Below, in pieces: positions 46,881 to 54,243 of a stretch of 64,000 nucleotides of DNA. Within the stretch, counting starts at the first letter, position 1, and every line of letters starts with the position of its first letter. Source of the stretch: Demequina sp. NBRC 110056. Its GTDB lineage: Bacteria > Actinomycetota > Actinomycetes > Actinomycetales > Demequinaceae. The notes under the pieces were generated by a model, which saw only the letters and a program-made list of their open reading frames with translations, was not told the origin of the DNA and did no database searches. Where the stretch lies: assembly GCF_002090155.1 (NCBI RefSeq), contig NZ_BBRM01000002.1:744001-808000 (forward strand). Reading direction: 5' to 3'. The position numbers were made by a program, and so were the translations under genes.

Positions 46881-48680
46881 TCAGCCGAGGGCGTGCGTCG
46901 CGGCGGTGGCGCGGCGCTGGGCCGCGAGGCGCACCGGCGCGTTCACCGCTCCGTAGCCGTCGTACCCGCCGCGGCGCTCGACGAGCTCGACGAACACGTC
47001 GCCGACCGCGGGCGTGTAGAGGTGCAGGAACTCGCCGTTCGCGTCGCGGTCGTAGAAGATGCCGAGCTCCCGCAGGTCGGAGAGCAGGTCCGCGTCGAGG
47101 CTCGTTCCCCACCGTGCCGCGAGGTCGTCGTAGTAGTTGTCGGGCACCGGCAACGTCTCGAGTCCGCGCGCTCGTGCCGCACGAGCGAGCGCCACGAGGT
47201 CCCCGCAGTGGACGGCGACGTGGCGCTGCGGAGTCGGAGCGGTGGGCGGCGCAAGGTTGATCGGGATCCGCACGTCGCCCGACGGTGTGCGCATGACCTG
47301 GCTGCGCACGAGGCCCATGGGACCGGGCACGTCCTCGGCCGCCTGCGCCTCGAGCCCGAGCGCGCTGCCGGCAAAGAGCACGGCCTCATCGAACTCCTGC
47401 CACGGGAAGCCGAGGTTGACGTGGTCCACGACGCCCGCGAAGGAGCCCTCGGCGCCTCCGCCCACGAACTCCGTCATCCAGGACTCCTCCGCGCGGTGCG
47501 AGCTCCAGTAGACCTCGGTCCCGTCGGGAGACGCCACGGCCCGCAGCTCCTGCTCCCCTGCGTAGGTGCGACGGTAGGCACGCGGCGCGCCCAGCGCCTG
47601 CGCACGCTCGACCGCCGCGTCGGCGTCCGGCACCTCGAGCCCGATCGCCGACAGTCTCGGCCGTTCGTCGCGGACCTGTTCGTTGAGGATGATGCGGGCG
47701 TCACCTGCGGTCCACAGGCGCACGGGCTTGCTGCGATGCCTGCCTCGGAAGGCGAAGCCGCAGCGCTCGAGGAGCGCGTCGAAGCGCTCGAGGTCGGCGC
47801 CGCCGATCTCGACGAAGTCGGTGCCCGTCGGAAGCTGCTGGGGCGGCACCGGGACGGCGCCTGTCGCGGTCGAGCCGGCGCGATCCTCGAGCCAGGTGAG
47901 CGATCGGCGGGCGTGAGCGGCGGTGCGCACGACGTCCGTCTGGCGGAACGTGTCGTTGAACACCTCGAGAGAGATGGGCCCCGCGTAGCCTGCGGCCTCG
48001 ACGTGGCGCAAGAACCCCGCGAGGTCGAAGCTGCCCTCTCCCGGGAACAGGCGGTGGTGCCGGCTCCACGACAGGACGTCCATCTGCAGGGCGGGCGCGT
48101 CGGCGAGCTGCACGAAGAGGATCCGGTCGCCGGGGATCTCCTCGATCGCGCGCGCATCGTGCCCACGGGACAGGATGTGGAAGCTGTCGAGGCAGACCCC
48201 GAGGTTGGGTCGATCCGCGCGACGGACGACGCGCCACGCGTCGCGGTAGTCGCTCACGAACCTTCCCCACGCGAGAGCCTCGTAGGCGAGCCGGATGCCG
48301 TGGGCGGCGGCACGGTCCGCGAGCTCGCCCAGCTGGCGCGCCGCGACCGCGTCGTCGCCGATGGTCGCGGTCGCGACGTTCGAGCACACCAGCATGAGGT
48401 CCGTGCCGAGCCTGCGCATGACGTCGAACTTCGCCTCCGCGCGTTCGAGCGTGGCCGCGAAGGTCGCATCATCCACGCCCTCGACGTCGCGGAACGGTTG
48501 GAACATGTCGATCTCGAGGCCGAGCCGTGCGCACAGCGCGCGGATCTCCTCGGGTGACTCCTCGGCGGCGACCAGGTCCGCGTCCATGATCTCGATGCCG
48601 TCGAACCCGGCGGAGGCGCAGGCATGGATCTTCTCCACGAGCCCTCCGGAGAGGCAGACCGTCGCAATTGACGTGCGCAT
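46881..48680 (-). CDS. qsuB: 3-Dehydroshikimate dehydratase, TIM barrel fused to HPPD-like domain
   Basis: Converts 3-dehydroshikimate to protocatechuate. 599 aa. An N-terminal xylose-isomerase-like barrel (1 to about 270) has metal-ligand candidates in YEALAW, CLDSFHIL, VQLADAP and SLEVFND. The C-terminal half (about 290-590) is a two-module vicinal-oxygen-chelate domain resembling 4-hydroxyphenylpyruvate dioxygenase (GVVDHVNLG, FLHLYTP). The same fusion is known for QsuB/QuiC-type enzymes. The ATG at 48680 lies seven bases after TACATT, so a leaderless mRNA is likely, and a palindromic operator covers this site. Divergent from the TRAP genes. Confidence 0.88.
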   Translation of the reverse strand: MRTSIATVCLSGGLVEKIHACASAGFDGIEIMDADLVAAEESPEEIRALCARLGLEIDMFQPFRDVEGVDDATFAATLERAEAKFDVMRRLGTDLMLVCSNVATATIGDDAVAARQLGELADRAAAHGIRLAYEALAWGRFVSDYRDAWRVVRRADRPNLGVCLDSFHILSRGHDARAIEEIPGDRILFVQLADAPALQMDVLSWSRHHRLFPGEGSFDLAGFLRHVEAAGYAGPISLEVFNDTFRQTDVVRTAAHARRSLTWLEDRAGSTATGAVPVPPQQLPTGTDFVEIGGADLERFDALLERCGFAFRGRHRSKPVRLWTAGDARIILNEQVRDERPRLSAIGLEVPDADAAVERAQALGAPRAYRRTYAGEQELRAVASPDGTEVYWSSHRAEESWMTEFVGGGAEGSFAGVVDHVNLGFPWQEFDEAVLFAGSALGLEAQAAEDVPGPMGLVRSQVMRTPSGDVRIPINLAPPTAPTPQRHVAVHCGDLVALARAARARGLETLPVPDNYYDDLAARWGTSLDADLLSDLRELGIFYDRDANGEFLHLYTPAVGDVFVELVERRGGYDGYGAVNAPVRLAAQRRATAATHALG

Positions 48681-48687
48681 GAGACGC

Positions 48688-48707
48688 AATGTACCACTCG
48701 GTACATT
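48688..48707. promoter_or_regulatory. Palindromic operator O1 at the dehydratase start
   Basis: AATGTACCACTCGGTACATT is a palindrome with perfect 8-base half-sites and a four-base centre. It covers the minus-strand TACATT next to the dehydratase ATG, so a bound protein would block this promoter. Confidence 0.75.
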
Positions 48708-48722
48708 TCTTCGCCGAGGCCC

Positions 48723-48751
48723 TTGCACCGCTGTGTACCAACCAGTACATT
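48723..48751 (+). promoter_or_regulatory. TRAP operon promoter with operator O2
   Basis: TTGCAC (48723-48728), exactly 17 bases, then TACATT (48746-48751) make a good sigma-70 promoter. Operator TGTACCAACCAGTACA (48734-48749) lies in its spacer and -10, with its centre 44 bp from O1. The TetR gene of the island is the best candidate for the bound repressor. Confidence 0.75.
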
Positions 48752-48805: not shown

Positions 48806-49366
48806 GTGACCGACGATCCACGACGTGAGGGGCAGCCCCGCCCCGTCGCCGCAACCCTGCGCGTCCTCGGCTTCCTCGAGCTCGGCATCGGGGCGTTGTC
48901 GCTGCTGACGATCCTGGTGCTCGTGTTCTTCCAGGCCCTGCAGCGCTACCTCCCCATCGACCAGATCGCGTGGACCGGAGAGATCGCGCGGTTCTCGCTG
49001 GTGTGGCTCACCTTCGCGGTGATGGGCTGGCTGGTCACGGCACGGGGCCACATCGCGCTCGAGGTCGTCGACACCCTGCCGTGGCCGTCCGTGGTCCGCG
49101 CAGCGCAGACCCTCGCGCTCGTGGTCGTCGCCGCGACCGGCGTGGGGCTCGCGCTCGAGGCCTGGGCTCTCGTCGAGACGCAGAGCATCATCAAGTCCCC
49201 GGTGCTGAGGATGCCGATGTCGTGGGTGTACATCCCGGTGCTGTTCGGCGCCGCGATGACCGTGGTGCGCGCGCTGCTCGCCGCGTACGAGGTCGCCCGC
49301 TACGGCCCTCCCCCGCCGCCGGAGGCGGAGCAGCCCGTGAGCGACGCTCAGGAGGTGGCGTCATGA
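48806..49366 (+). CDS. dctQ: TRAP transporter small membrane subunit (DctQ)
   Basis: 186 aa with four membrane helices (about 20-45, 55-77, 92-112, 130-152), the standard size and topology of DctQ, which joins the large subunit in a sodium-driven uptake system. GTG 48806 follows AAAGGTG. Its stop overlaps the dctM start (ATGA). It heads the operon dctQ-dctM-dehydrogenase-dctP-hydrolase-tetR. The substrate is inferred from neighbours to be a shikimate- or quinate-like acid. Confidence 0.9.
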   Translation: MTDDPRREGQPRPVAATLRVLGFLELGIGALSLLTILVLVFFQALQRYLPIDQIAWTGEIARFSLVWLTFAVMGWLVTARGHIALEVVDTLPWPSVVRAAQTLALVVVAATGVGLALEAWALVETQSIIKSPVLRMPMSWVYIPVLFGAAMTVVRALLAAYEVARYGPPPPPEAEQPVSDAQEVAS

Positions 49367-50637
49367 CGCTTGCGCTCCTCGGCATCGGCATCGCCGTGCT
49401 GCTCCTGCTGCGCGTGCCCGTCGCCTTCGCGTTCCTGGGACCATCGCTCGTCTACATGGCGATGATGGAGCAGTCCACGGGCTCCGCGCTGCGCCACGTC
49501 ACCAACTCGGCCGCCAGCTTCCCGCTGCTGGCGGTGCCGCTCTTCGTCCTGCTCGGGACGCTCGCGAACCACACCGGCATCGCGGAGAAGTTCTTCAGGT
49601 TCGCTCTCGCCGCTCTCGCCAAGGTGCGCGGAAGCCTCGGGTACGTCGCCGTCGGCACCTCGGTGGGCTTCTCCTGGATGAGCGGCTCGGCGGTCGCCGA
49701 CGCGGCCGCGCTGGGCAAGGTCCAGATCCCTGCGATGCTCAAGGCGGGCTACTCGCGACGGTTCGCCACGGGCGTGTCCGCCTCGTCGTCGCTCGTCGCC
49801 CCCGTCATGCCGCCGTCGATCCCCGCGGTGATCTACGCCGGGCTCGCCGCCGTCTCGACCGGCGCTCTGTTCGCCGCCTCGGTAGTGCCGGCGATCGCGA
49901 TGGCGGTCGGCCTGTGCATCGTCGTCTTCGTCCTGGTGCGCCGCGATCGGTCGATCACGACGGACACCTTCGACCGCGCCGAGCTGCGGGCCTCGGTGCC
50001 GGGTGTCCTGCTGCCGATGCTGGCCCCCATCATCATCCTCGGCGGGATCCTCGGCGGCTTCTTCACCCCCACCGAGGCCGCGGCGATCGGCGTCGTGTGG
50101 ATCATCATCGTCGGCCTGCTGCACCGGACCCTCAACTGGGGCGGGTTCGCGAGCGCGGTGAAGGACGCCGTCACCACCACCGCCTCGATCATGCTCATCG
50201 TCGCGTCAGCATCGCTGCTGGGCTACATCCTGGCGCGCGAGCGGCTGCCGCAGATGCTCACCGAGGCCGTGCTGGCGGTGACGGACAGCCCGATGGTGTT
50301 CCTCGCGCTCGCCGCGCTCATGATGCTGATCCTCGGCACCGTCATCGATGCCACCGCGATCCTGGTGCTCGTCGTCCCGATCCTCCTGCCCATCGCCCGC
50401 GAGTTCGGCGTGGACCCCATCACCATGGGCGTCCTGCTGATCGTCTCGCTCATGATCGGGCTGCTCACACCGCCGGTCGGCACGGTGCTGTTCGTCACGG
50501 CACACGTGTCGAAGACCAAGGTCGGCGAGGTGTTCCGCGGCTCGATCCCGTTCCTCATCCCCTCCGTGTGCATCGTCGCGATCATCATCCTGTTCCCTGA
50601 CGTCGTCACCTGGCTGCCGAAGGCGCTCGGACTATGA
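49363..50637 (+). CDS. dctM: TRAP transporter large permease (DctM)
   Basis: 424 aa, about 12 membrane helices, with family features FFTPTEAAAIGVVW, SSSLVAPVMPPSIPAVIYAG and LLTPPVGTVLFV. It forms the ion-coupled translocation channel. The ATG is preceded by AGGAGGTG and overlaps the dctQ stop. Its own stop overlaps the following dehydrogenase ATG. Length is typical. Confidence 0.95.
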   Translation: MTLALLGIGIAVLLLLRVPVAFAFLGPSLVYMAMMEQSTGSALRHVTNSAASFPLLAVPLFVLLGTLANHTGIAEKFFRFALAALAKVRGSLGYVAVGTSVGFSWMSGSAVADAAALGKVQIPAMLKAGYSRRFATGVSASSSLVAPVMPPSIPAVIYAGLAAVSTGALFAASVVPAIAMAVGLCIVVFVLVRRDRSITTDTFDRAELRASVPGVLLPMLAPIIILGGILGGFFTPTEAAAIGVVWIIIVGLLHRTLNWGGFASAVKDAVTTTASIMLIVASASLLGYILARERLPQMLTEAVLAVTDSPMVFLALAALMMLILGTVIDATAILVLVVPILLPIAREFGVDPITMGVLLIVSLMIGLLTPPVGTVLFVTAHVSKTKVGEVFRGSIPFLIPSVCIVAIIILFPDVVTWLPKALGL

Positions 50638-51548
50638 CGACACCAGCAGACGCCCGCACCCGCCTCGTCGGGCTCGTCGGCGAGGGAATCTCCACCTCGC
50701 TCACGCCGCCGATGCACGAGCGGGAGGGTGCGCGCCACGGCTTCGCGTACGTCTACCGGACGATCGAGCTGACGAACGCGGAGAGCGGGGTCGGCGCCCT
50801 GCACGCGCTCCTCGAGTCGGCGAGGAGGCTCGGCTTCGACGGGCTCAACGTCACCCACCCCGTCAAGCGCACCGTGATGGGCGCGCTCGACCGCCTCGCT
50901 CCCAGCGCCACCGCCGTCGGCGCGGTCAACACCGTCCTGTTCACGGCCGACGGCGCCGTCGGTCACAACACGGATGTGACGGGGTTCGCCGCGTCGCTGT
51001 CGGACGCCGCCGCCGGCCGTTCCTTCGAGCGGGCGGTGCTCGTCGGCGCGGGCGGCGCCGGGTGCGCGGTCGCCGCCGCTCTCGCGGACCGCGGGATCGC
51101 CCGGCTCACGATCGTCGACGAGGACACCGCGCGCGCCGCGGAGCTCGCGGACACCGCGACCGGAGTCGGCGAGGCGACGACACGTATGCCGGAGGACGCC
51201 GAGGAGGCACTCCGCGGCGCGGACCTGGTGATCAACGCCACCCCCGTCGGCATGGCCCACCTGCCCGGATGCGCCATCGACGTTGATCTCCTCTCCCCCA
51301 CGACCTTCGTCGCCGACGTCGTCTACCGGCCGGTCGAGACGGAGCTCATCACCCGGGCACGCGCCCGGGGCTGCACCGTCATGACCGGGCTCGGCATGGC
51401 GATGCACCAGGCAGCCGACGCGTTCGAGCTGTTCACCTCAGAGACTGCCGATCGGCGCGCCATGCTCGCCGATCTGACAGAGATGGTCGCCGCCGAGGCG
51501 GCCGCAACCACTGCCCCAGCGGCACCCATGAAAGGACAGGAACAATGA
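50634..51548 (+). CDS. qsuD: Quinate/shikimate dehydrogenase (QsuD type)
   Basis: 304-aa AroE-family dehydrogenase. The substrate site reads GEGISTSLTPPMHE rather than the biosynthetic SHSLSP form; this STSLTP version marks actinobacterial catabolic quinate/shikimate dehydrogenases that use NAD. The catalytic lysine is in NVTHPVKR, and the nucleotide-binding GAGGAGCAVA is at about 138. It would oxidise shikimate to 3-dehydroshikimate, or quinate to 3-dehydroquinate. Overlaps dctM and dctP by four bases each, so transport and oxidation are co-expressed. Confidence 0.9.
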   Translation: MTTPADARTRLVGLVGEGISTSLTPPMHEREGARHGFAYVYRTIELTNAESGVGALHALLESARRLGFDGLNVTHPVKRTVMGALDRLAPSATAVGAVNTVLFTADGAVGHNTDVTGFAASLSDAAAGRSFERAVLVGAGGAGCAVAAALADRGIARLTIVDEDTARAAELADTATGVGEATTRMPEDAEEALRGADLVINATPVGMAHLPGCAIDVDLLSPTTFVADVVYRPVETELITRARARGCTVMTGLGMAMHQAADAFELFTSETADRRAMLADLTEMVAAEAAATTAPAAPMKGQEQ

Positions 51549-52606
51549 CGTCACCACGTCCGATGCGCACTCGCTGGGTGGCCCTCGCGGCCGCGCCGGC
51601 TCTCCTTCTCGCTGCCTGCTCGTCCGAGGACCCGGCCACGGATCCGACCGACAGCGCGGCACCCGAGGAGTCGTCGGCTCCGCCTGCTGAGCAGGAGACC
51701 ATCGAGCTCACGCTCGCGCACAGCTACACCGAGGACCAGCCGCAGCACGCCTGCGGCGCGCAGGTCATCGCCGACGAGGTCGCCGCCGCGAACGTCGGCC
51801 TCACCGTCGAGATCTTCCCGTCGAGCCAGCTCGGCGGCGACGCGGACCGCATCGCGTCCGTCGTCTCCGGCGACATCGACATCGACATCCAGGGCGCCTC
51901 CGCTCTGGGCGCGGTCTACGAGCCGATCAGCGTGCTCGACTCGGCGTTCGCCTTCGACGACGAGACCCACCTCGCGGCGTTCATGGCCAGCGAGGAGTCC
52001 GGCGTCCTGATCGAGGGCTTCGCCACCGAGACGGGTGTGCAGACCCTCGGCGTCTGGTCCGCCGGAGCGCGCCATTTCACCGCGAACGACCCGATCCGCA
52101 CCCCCGACGACCTCGAGGGGCTGAGGATGCGCTTCCCCGGATCGCCGCAGTACCTCATGAATGCCGAGGCCCTCGGCGCGACCGCCACCGAGGTCGCATA
52201 CGAGGAGCTCTACCTGGCGCTGCAACAGGGCACGGTCGACGGCCAGGAGAACCCGATCACCAACATCGACGCCTCGAACCTCAAGGAGGTGCAGGACTAC
52301 CTGAGCCTGTCCGCGCACCAGCTCAACACGAACCTCGTGATCGTCAGCCCGATCTGGGAGGAGCTCAGCACGGAGCAGCAGGACGCGCTGTCGGCGGCGA
52401 CCCTCGCCGCCGTCGACGCGGTCACCGCGTGCGTCGCGGAGGCGGAGACCGAGACCCTCGACGCGTGGCGCGCCGAGGGCGAGTGGGAGATCGTCGACGA
52501 CGTCGACCGCGACGCCTTCTCCGAGATGGCCGTCACGTACCTGGAGGAGACCTTCACGGGCGAGTCGCTCGAGGTCTTCAACGCGATCCGCGCGACCGCG
52601 CCCTGA
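51545..52606 (+). CDS. dctP: TRAP transporter solute-binding lipoprotein (DctP)
   Basis: 353 aa. Signal peptide with lipobox LLAAC (Cys at about 25), then an acidic Ser/Pro linker and the DctP ligand-binding fold: LAHSYTEDQPQHACGAQ, LRMRFPGSPQY and the LYLALQQGTVDGQENP signature. The arginine in the LRMRFPG segment is the usual carboxylate contact. ATG 51545 follows AAAGGACAGGAAC. It captures an organic acid outside the membrane and delivers it to DctQM. Confidence 0.94.
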   Translation: MTSPRPMRTRWVALAAAPALLLAACSSEDPATDPTDSAAPEESSAPPAEQETIELTLAHSYTEDQPQHACGAQVIADEVAAANVGLTVEIFPSSQLGGDADRIASVVSGDIDIDIQGASALGAVYEPISVLDSAFAFDDETHLAAFMASEESGVLIEGFATETGVQTLGVWSAGARHFTANDPIRTPDDLEGLRMRFPGSPQYLMNAEALGATATEVAYEELYLALQQGTVDGQENPITNIDASNLKEVQDYLSLSAHQLNTNLVIVSPIWEELSTEQQDALSAATLAAVDAVTACVAEAETETLDAWRAEGEWEIVDDVDRDAFSEMAVTYLEETFTGESLEVFNAIRATAP

Positions 52607-52619
52607 CCGGATCCGCGGC

Positions 52620-53588
52620 GTGGGGACAGTAGCCACCTACTCCGGCGACACCCACGCCGCGGACCTGGGGGTCACGCTCATGCACGAGCACCTGTTCGTG
52701 CGACAGCCGGAGCTCGACGGCGTCCTGCCCGATCCCGAGTGGGACGCGCAGGGCGCCGTCGAGCGCGCGGTGGAGCTCCTGAAGCGCCTCTTCGCTCACG
52801 GCGTCCGCACCCTCGTGGACCTCACGGTCCCCGGCATCGGACGGGACGCGACCCTGGTCGGCGAGGTCGCCCGCCGTAGCCCGGTCGCGATCGTCGCCTC
52901 CACGGGGTGGTACACGACGACCGTCCTCCCACCCGCGCTGCAGGCACAGGGACCCGGCCGTCTCGTCGACGGCCCGGATCTGCTCTCCGCCCTCTTCGTG
53001 GCAGACCTCACCCGGGGCATCGCGGGGACCGAGGTGCGCGCGGGGATGATCAAGGTCGCGTCGGCCGGATCGGGGATCACCGAGGACGTGCGGCGGGTGT
53101 TCGCCGCGGCAGCGCACGCCCATGCGGAGACGGGCGCGCCCATCACGACGCACTCGGACCCGCTGGCCGGAGGCGGCCCCGATCAGCAGGATCTCCTCGA
53201 GTCGCTCGGGGTGGACCTGACGCGCGTGGTGATCGGCCACGCCGGCGATGGGAGCGACCTCACCCTTCTGCGTCGGATCGCGGACCGCGGCTCGTTCTTG
53301 GGCTTCGACCGATTCGGCATGGAGCACACGGCGCCGGACGCCCGCCGCGTCGACAACCTCGTCCGGCTCATCGAGCTCGGGTACGCCGATCGCGTGGTGC
53401 TCTCGCACGACGCGGCGGTGCACAGCCGGGTGACCCCGCCGTCGTGGCGAGCCACCCACACGCCCCACTGGCACATGGAGCACCTGCATCGGACGATCCT
53501 TCCGGCGCTGCGCGAGCGCGGAGTCTCGGAGGGCACCCTCGCCACCATGATGATCGACAATCCGCGTCGAATCCTCGCTGGTCACTAG
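52620..53588 (+). CDS. Phosphotriesterase-family metal-dependent hydrolase/lactonase
   Basis: 322 aa, amidohydrolase-superfamily barrel of the phosphotriesterase-like lactonase group. The metal site is complete: HEH (MHEHLFV, near 21-23), the bridging lysine in GMIKVASAG, His in TTHSDP, His in IGHAGD and Asp in LSHDAAV. Natural substrates of such enzymes are lactones or esters. Its place in a shikimate/quinate operon suggests a related lactone or ester; that is inference. Start GTG 52620 has no clear ribosome-binding site, so coupling with dctP is likely. Confidence 0.88.
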   Translation: MGTVATYSGDTHAADLGVTLMHEHLFVRQPELDGVLPDPEWDAQGAVERAVELLKRLFAHGVRTLVDLTVPGIGRDATLVGEVARRSPVAIVASTGWYTTTVLPPALQAQGPGRLVDGPDLLSALFVADLTRGIAGTEVRAGMIKVASAGSGITEDVRRVFAAAAHAHAETGAPITTHSDPLAGGGPDQQDLLESLGVDLTRVVIGHAGDGSDLTLLRRIADRGSFLGFDRFGMEHTAPDARRVDNLVRLIELGYADRVVLSHDAAVHSRVTPPSWRATHTPHWHMEHLHRTILPALRERGVSEGTLATMMIDNPRRILAGH

Positions 53589-53598
53589 GGTGGGGAGC

Positions 53599-54243
53599 GT
53601 GACCGAGACACCGCGACGACGCGACGCCGAGCGCACGCGCGCCGAGCTCCTCGACGTGGCGACGGAGGCGTTCGCGGAGTCCGGCTACTCGGGCACCCGC
53701 GTCGACGAGATCGCGAGCAGGACCCGCACCACGAAGCGGATGATCTACTACTACTTCGGCGGCAAGGAGCAGCTCTACCTGGCTGTCCTCGAGAAGGCCT
53801 ACCGCGGGATCCGCGAGGCGGAGGAGTCGCTCCACGTGGGCGACCTCGACCCCGTCGAGGGCGTGCGGCGACTCGCCGAGCTGACCTACGACCACCACCT
53901 CAACCACACCGCGTTCATCCGACTCGTCGCGATCGAGAACATCCACCGCGGCGACTTCATCCGACGGCTCGACAGCCTGCGGTCGCTGAACCGCAACGCG
54001 CTGGGCATCCTCGACGGGGTGCTCGAGAGAGGCCGTGCGGACGGTTCGCTTCGCACCGACGTGGACCCGCTCGACGTGCACATCGCCATCAGCGCGTACT
54101 GCTTCTTCCAGGTCGCCAACCGCCATACCTTCGGGTTTCTGTTCGAGCGCGACATGCTCGACCCGGACCTGCGCGATCACCACCGCTCGATGATCGGCGA
54201 CATCGTCGTCGGGTGGCTGACCAGCGGGATCGCCGGCCGCTAG
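53599..54243 (+). CDS. TetR-family transcriptional regulator
   Basis: 214 aa. N-terminal helix-turn-helix (about 8-55) with GYSGTRVDEIASRTRTTKRM and YYYFGGKEQLY, then a helical ligand-binding domain. Last gene of the TRAP operon, so it is probably the local ligand-sensing repressor and may bind the TGTACC-N4-GGTACA operators near 48.7 kb. GTG 53599 is preceded by GGGGAG and also by TAGGGT seven bases earlier; GTG 53590 is the alternative start. Confidence 0.9.
   Translation: MTETPRRRDAERTRAELLDVATEAFAESGYSGTRVDEIASRTRTTKRMIYYYFGGKEQLYLAVLEKAYRGIREAEESLHVGDLDPVEGVRRLAELTYDHHLNHTAFIRLVAIENIHRGDFIRRLDSLRSLNRNALGILDGVLERGRADGSLRTDVDPLDVHIAISAYCFFQVANRHTFGFLFERDMLDPDLRDHHRSMIGDIVVGWLTSGIAGR

Follow-up and report, generated by a model that had tools for sequence, protein, structure and literature searches.

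Introduction

The closest described control systems for quinate and shikimate use are those of Corynebacterium glutamicum, in which QsuR and ShiR are LysR-type regulators, QsuR acting as an activator in response to chorismate (PMC11258901, PMC7442255). LysR-type control in Corynebacterium was the only control of the pathway found in our literature search. No TetR regulator of the shikimate/quinate pathway is named in the titles and abstract openings that were found, and one may already be in print, as subscription papers and regulon databases lay outside the scope of the search. Here we describe a gene cluster within a 64,000-nucleotide stretch of the Demequina sp. NBRC 110056 genome (hereafter the window). 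It resembles the QsuR and ShiR systems in that the same pathway is controlled or sensed in an actinobacterium and that QsuB is related to QuiC1. It differs from them in its TetR-type regulator, in its operator and in its TRAP transporter gene set. No LysR-type regulator gene was found beside the cluster, the two regulator genes there being of the TetR and IclR types.

Described TetR-family proteins provide a second comparison. The closest solved structures to the model of the Demequina TetR are DIP1788 of Corynebacterium diphtheriae (PDB 3npi), which ranks first in the sequence-profile comparison (E 7e-35) as well as in fold (32% identity), and RutR, the regulator of pyrimidine use in Escherichia coli. 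To our knowledge, no function or operator has been described for DIP1788. RutR shares the TetR fold, but it has only 18–20% identity to the Demequina protein and serves another pathway through another operator; its palindrome, reportedly TTGACCA-N2-TGGTCAA, is of a similar make to the operator described below. DarR is likewise an actinobacterial TetR regulator, and the title of its PDB entry gives a dimer-of-dimers mode of DNA binding, a model for cooperative operators, whereas its structures are listed with cyclic nucleotides as ligands and the identity to the Demequina TetR is 22–26%.

The gene cluster and its divergent promoters

The gene quiC (46881–48680, minus strand) encodes a two-domain 3-dehydroshikimate dehydratase (Pfam AP_endonuc_2 and HPPD-like), whose match to the NCBIfam QuiC model (E 2e-160, 535 bits) lies below the curated cut-off of 1200. 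On the plus strand are dctQ (48806–49366, starting with GTG at 48806; TRAP small permease, Pfam DctQ), dctM (49366–50637; TRAP large permease, Pfam DctM and TIGR00786), an aroE-type shikimate (quinate) dehydrogenase gene (50634–51548; PRK12549 subfamily, above the cut-off), dctP (51545–52606; TRAP solute-binding protein, Pfam DctP), a gene for a PTE-family hydrolase (52620–53588; Pfam PTE), perhaps a lactonase, and tetR (53590–54243; Pfam TetR_N and TetR_C_29). The last of these encodes the proposed repressor, ends the TRAP gene string and starts with GTG at either 53590 or 53599. It is followed at 54.25–55.02 kb by the gene of an IclR regulator of the PcaR/PcaU/PobR kind, which scores below the cut-off of that model. 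Because the genes from dctQ to tetR are nearly gapless, tetR very probably belongs to the operon under operator 2 (see below). The cluster seems suited to shikimate or dehydroshikimate over quinate, since no 3-dehydroquinate dehydratase was seen in it; a search for the type II enzyme found one copy in the genome, about 394 kb away. The PTE-family hydrolase is retained in TRAP-type clusters and perhaps opens a quinate or shikimate lactone.

Two unstranded palindromes lie between quiC and dctQ. By direct reading, operator 1 (48688–48707; matrix score 29.8) is a perfect AATGTACC-N4-GGTACATT of 20 bp, and its 16-bp core, TGTACCACTCGGTACA (48690–48705), has perfect arms. Operator 2 (48732–48751; matrix score 27.3) has the core TGTACCAACCAGTACA (48734–48749), which departs from the 16-bp pattern at one position. 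The centres, at 48697.5 and 48741.5, are 44 bp apart. The quiC −10 element, TACATT (48693–48688, minus strand), is found inside operator 1, 7 nt ahead of the ATG at 48680. A TGG ahead of it makes an extended −10 (TGGTACATT, 48688–48696), no good −35 was seen by eye, and the mRNA would be leaderless. The promoter of the TRAP operon (48723–48751, plus strand), which is conserved in Demequina, consists of TTGCAC (48723–48728), a 17-nt spacer and TACATT (48746–48751); most of the spacer and the entire −10 lie under operator 2. A simple sigma-70 scan of 46.8–55.2 kb returned no promoter-like site and thus gives the proposed promoters no support, as both depart from the strict consensus of the scan. 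These readings agree with the original prediction, in which two TGTACC-N4-GGTACA-type palindromes with centres 44 bp apart overlap the −10 elements of the divergent dehydratase and TRAP promoters. The prediction also had an operator in the spacer of TTGCAC-N17-TACATT, to which we add that operator 2 reaches across the whole −10.

From these positions and the comparisons below, it is very likely that both palindromes are operators of the TetR encoded at 53.6 kb, which would block the −10 at each promoter and thereby control its own operon. The site is symmetric and 20 bp long, and so fits a TetR dimer. Without ligand, a dimer on each operator would conceal the −10. Occupation of operator 1 would turn off quiC, and with it the conversion of dehydroshikimate to protocatechuate; occupation of operator 2 would turn off the operon for TRAP uptake, shikimate dehydrogenase, the PTE-family hydrolase and TetR. 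As tetR lies in the operon shut by operator 2, the repressor would limit its own synthesis. A pathway acid would then free TetR from the DNA, and both promoters would fire together.

Rarity of the operator in the genome

In the genome of 2,937,786 bp, the strict pattern TGTACYNNNNRGTACA occurs only at operators 1 and 2, and a control pattern occurs at one place. A 20-bp pattern with up to three mismatches likewise finds only the two operators genome-wide, and its reversed control finds nothing. Three one-mismatch matches to the 16-bp pattern elsewhere in the genome fail the 20-bp pattern, and for two of them (L003 and L004) the best matrix score is below −4. At three mismatches the 16-bp pattern gives 13 matches in the window against 5.7 expected, and at two mismatches it gives 39 forward matches in the genome against 82 for the reversed control. 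Since the looser 16-bp pattern is not enriched genome-wide, we base our claim on the strict sites together with the comparison among genomes.

Conservation in Demequina and other Actinobacteria

Orthologs of the TetR (70–77% identity) were found in 7 of 43 other genomes of the genus, and the gene order is kept at all seven loci as far as the contigs reach. The quiC–dctQ intergenic region was compared in six of them, the seventh contig (G030) ending in dctM. Both operators are present in all six regions. When the window is included, TTGC and TACRTT of the TRAP promoter are found in 7 of 7 regions, at a spacing of N17 in three and N18 in four, and TGNTACATT is followed by 6–7 nt and ATG before quiC in every case. 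In the six other regions, TGN-TACATT precedes the quiC ATG by 6 nt.

Beyond the genus, a scan of named genomes with the TetR alignment gave at least 571 related loci; the best 80 of them, the window and two more Demequina loci make up a set of 83. When up to two mismatches are allowed, 97 matches to the 16-bp pattern fall in 62 kb of tetR, quiC, aroE and dctQ promoter windows of this set (80 of its loci being the top-ranked of at least 571), and 43 fall in the other 1,465 kb. Reversal of the pattern leaves 1 match in the promoter windows and 43 elsewhere, and four permuted palindromes have 2 to 9 matches in the promoter windows. A symmetric matrix built from 74 distinct sites yields the 20-bp operator WAYGTACCARYTGGTACRTW, in which the flanking A/T positions, though outside the search pattern, are also conserved (0.92 and 0.69). 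Over 132 loci (the 83 and 49 from the quiC search described below; 2.18 Mb), 184 positions score above 15, as compared to none in the reversed sequence. Merged into 183 separate sites, 182 are within 400 bp of a tetR, quiC, aroE or dctQ start, a figure to be read with the matrix having been trained on such sites.

A site above 15 is present at 78 of the 83 TetR loci (80 of them the best of at least 571). Two siteless loci (L047 and L059) are on contigs that end short of the relevant upstream stretch. At another locus with no site above 15 (L110), quiC is beside tetR with a weak site of 10.5. Two further siteless loci (L046 and L053) encode TetR proteins of 77 and 73% identity in a different gene neighbourhood, with no quiC, aroE or dctQ match in the stretch examined; these orthologs may act on distant target loci or may have lost the regulon.

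The operator follows the TetR gene

The association was examined from the side of the enzyme in a search for quiC through 394 genomes of the class, which gave 52 rows in 49 genomes. From the 48 genomes other than that of the window 49 stretches were taken, and removal of four duplicates of training loci left 45 loci, in which a TetR ortholog was defined by at least 50% identity and a site by a matrix score above 15. The site is found at 20 of 21 quiC loci with a TetR ortholog and at none of the 24 whose stretch lacks one, where the best score is 11.4 (Fisher's exact test, P about 7e-12 with loci treated as unrelated; being related by descent, the loci are not independent events). Half of the TetR-less loci (12 of 24) encode the TRAP permease DctM, and two come from one genome (G205). 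Two others (G238 and G411) have a TetR relative of 54–55% identity outside the stretch, beside an aroE gene with its own site. A second sample came from a TetR search across 396 genomes of the order; of its 25 rows, 9 were already in the set and 16 were taken as new loci. At TetR identities of at least 52%, all 11 new loci score above 18, or 11 of 12 when G293 is counted (L170; TetR identity 55%), which has no site (best score 3.8). The five loci with identities of 51% or less score 15.0, 1.3, −3.6, 14.3 and 16.2, two of these being no site. By these comparisons of sequence, the operator follows the TetR gene rather than the pathway enzymes.

This distribution bears on two other readings of the palindromes. 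They could be intrinsic features of the promoters or the RNA, namely the two −10 elements with their mirror images rather than protein sites, as the −10 hexamers do form part of the palindromes. We regard this as very improbable, since the 20-bp symmetry is retained across many actinobacterial genera but missing from the 24 quiC loci whose stretch lacks TetR. The sites could also belong to the neighbouring IclR regulator (54.25–55.02 kb), which is adjacent, is of the PcaR/PcaU/PobR kind (below the model cut-off) and is near protocatechuate genes. Against this, there is no strict site between iclR and pcaH or anywhere else in the genome, most of the TetR loci (the best 80 of at least 571) lack an IclR match in the stretch examined, and quiC loci with an IclR match (28–32% identity) and no TetR (L167 and L193) have no site. 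Ownership by the IclR regulator was rejected, as the motif follows TetR, and we give it hardly any weight. The assignment of the operators to the local, putative TetR repressor is well supported by comparison. For many Actinobacteria, it links the genes for dehydroshikimate dehydratase with a regulator and its 20-bp operator.

In one genome (G610), two TetR paralogs of 47–49% identity, about 14 kb apart (L218 and L219), are each near only a weak site. Upstream of aroE, four distant loci (L175, L176, L182 and L198) have two diverged sites (scores of 16.7–21.9) separated by exactly 97 bp.

Arrangement and spacing of the operators

In other Actinobacteria the operator is a module at quiC, aroE, dctQ and tetR promoters in several gene orders. 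Of the 83 loci (80 being the best of at least 571), 51 have one site common to divergent quiC and tetR genes, and 50 of these 51 also have an aroE site. The remainder comprises 10 loci that share the twin quiC/dctQ arrangement with the window, 5 with the separate form, 12 with other forms and 5 with none. In the separate form, quiC and dctQ have one operator each, 1.8–2.8 kb apart (L051, L066, L096, L115 and L116, and in addition L152 outside the 83); separate quiC and dctQ operators are also found in L205 and L207, likewise outside the 83.

The centre distances of twin sites, which include some loci where the stretch examined does not reach tetR, are 44, 45, 55, 56, 56, 56 and 57 bp in Demequina, 45 and 45 bp in Microbacterium (one locus, L045, without a dct match), 45 bp in four genomes of another genus in the family of G228, 66 bp in Protaetiibacter (and in a locus with the same sites) and 90 bp in Agromyces. 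The two operators might then form one unit, in which two TetR dimers, next to each other on one DNA face, touch one another or bend the 44-bp stretch, closing both promoters in a cooperative manner. The distances of 44, 45, 55, 56, 57 and 66 bp are near steps of one helical turn, the 45-bp distance is shared by Demequina, Microbacterium and the genus in the family of G228, and a Rayleigh test over six lineages gave P = 0.02 at a period of 10.5 bp and 0.001 at 11 bp, for few spacings and a period chosen afterwards. However, five lineages gave P = 0.07 and 0.007 at these periods, the 90 bp of Agromyces is off phase at 10.5, and some spacings are perhaps inherited rather than independent. Moreover, 51 of 83 loci have a single quiC/tetR site and only 10 have the twin quiC/dctQ form, and the relatives with one operator each at quiC and dctQ, 1.8–2.8 kb apart, indicate that pairing is not needed. 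The clustered spacings are suggestive of same-face placement, and we consider a cooperative pair rather unlikely. Looping as a general rule was rejected, the twin form being one among several.

The original prediction, that one repressor could lock uptake and the committed step together, is supported in part. A single TetR with a common operator at both promoters, in a −10 position that would imply repression, is consistent with it, and orthologous clusters, beside which an absence of sites was to count against it, carry sites in 6 of 6 other Demequina and in 78 of 83 and 20 of 21 loci elsewhere in Actinobacteria. The looping or pairing that it proposed is not supported as stated, given the separate operators in relatives.

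The start of quiC

The quiC upstream regions that have a site number 77 distinct sequences, counting the window, and in 56 of them the outer hexamer of the operator ends 6–9 nt before the start. This hexamer is TACATT or TACGTT in 55 of the 56. A Shine-Dalgarno-like word is likewise lacking in 55 of them, which is partly forced by the short gap. The remaining 21 regions have gaps of 14–34 nt, and all 21 have a Shine-Dalgarno-like word. TGN precedes the hexamer in 52 of 56 short-gap regions as compared to 6 of 21 long-gap regions. The pattern suggests that quiC is probably often leaderless, with an operator half-site as its extended −10, and that RNA polymerase and repressor contend for one stretch ending at the quiC start codon. 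Leaderless mRNAs are described as common in Mycobacterium tuberculosis (PMC3898074). The apparently leaderless and leadered quiC forms, sharing the same operator/−10, constitute a natural series.

In its fullest form, the proposal would be of a TetR regulator of shikimate/quinate breakdown that is widespread in Actinobacteria and whose operator half-site is also the extended −10, 6–9 nt from a leaderless quiC start, so that one 30-bp element serves as repressor site, promoter and translation start, with the divergent form a phase-locked cooperative pair. We hold this combination only tentatively and think it improbable as a whole.

The TetR protein and its proposed ligand

The TetR protein scores 54 bits for TetR_N (cut-off 24) and 149 bits for TetR_C_29 (cut-off 26.2). 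Its AlphaFold model, built with 37 sequences, is all-helical with a mean pLDDT of 90, has the TetR fold and matches TetR structures. The NCBIfam equivalog tests fell below the curated cut-offs for both RutR (50 of the 368 bits needed) and the ScbR type (60 of 150). Binding of this protein to the operators, repression and release by a ligand are what we infer from sequence; for the releasing ligand, shikimate or 3-dehydroshikimate would be the most likely, and the operator could be used in sensing acids of the shikimate pathway. In the ligand domain, polar residues that are invariant or nearly so (D101, H102, H103, R111, E116, N117, H119, Q174 and N177) would suit a small hydroxy acid.
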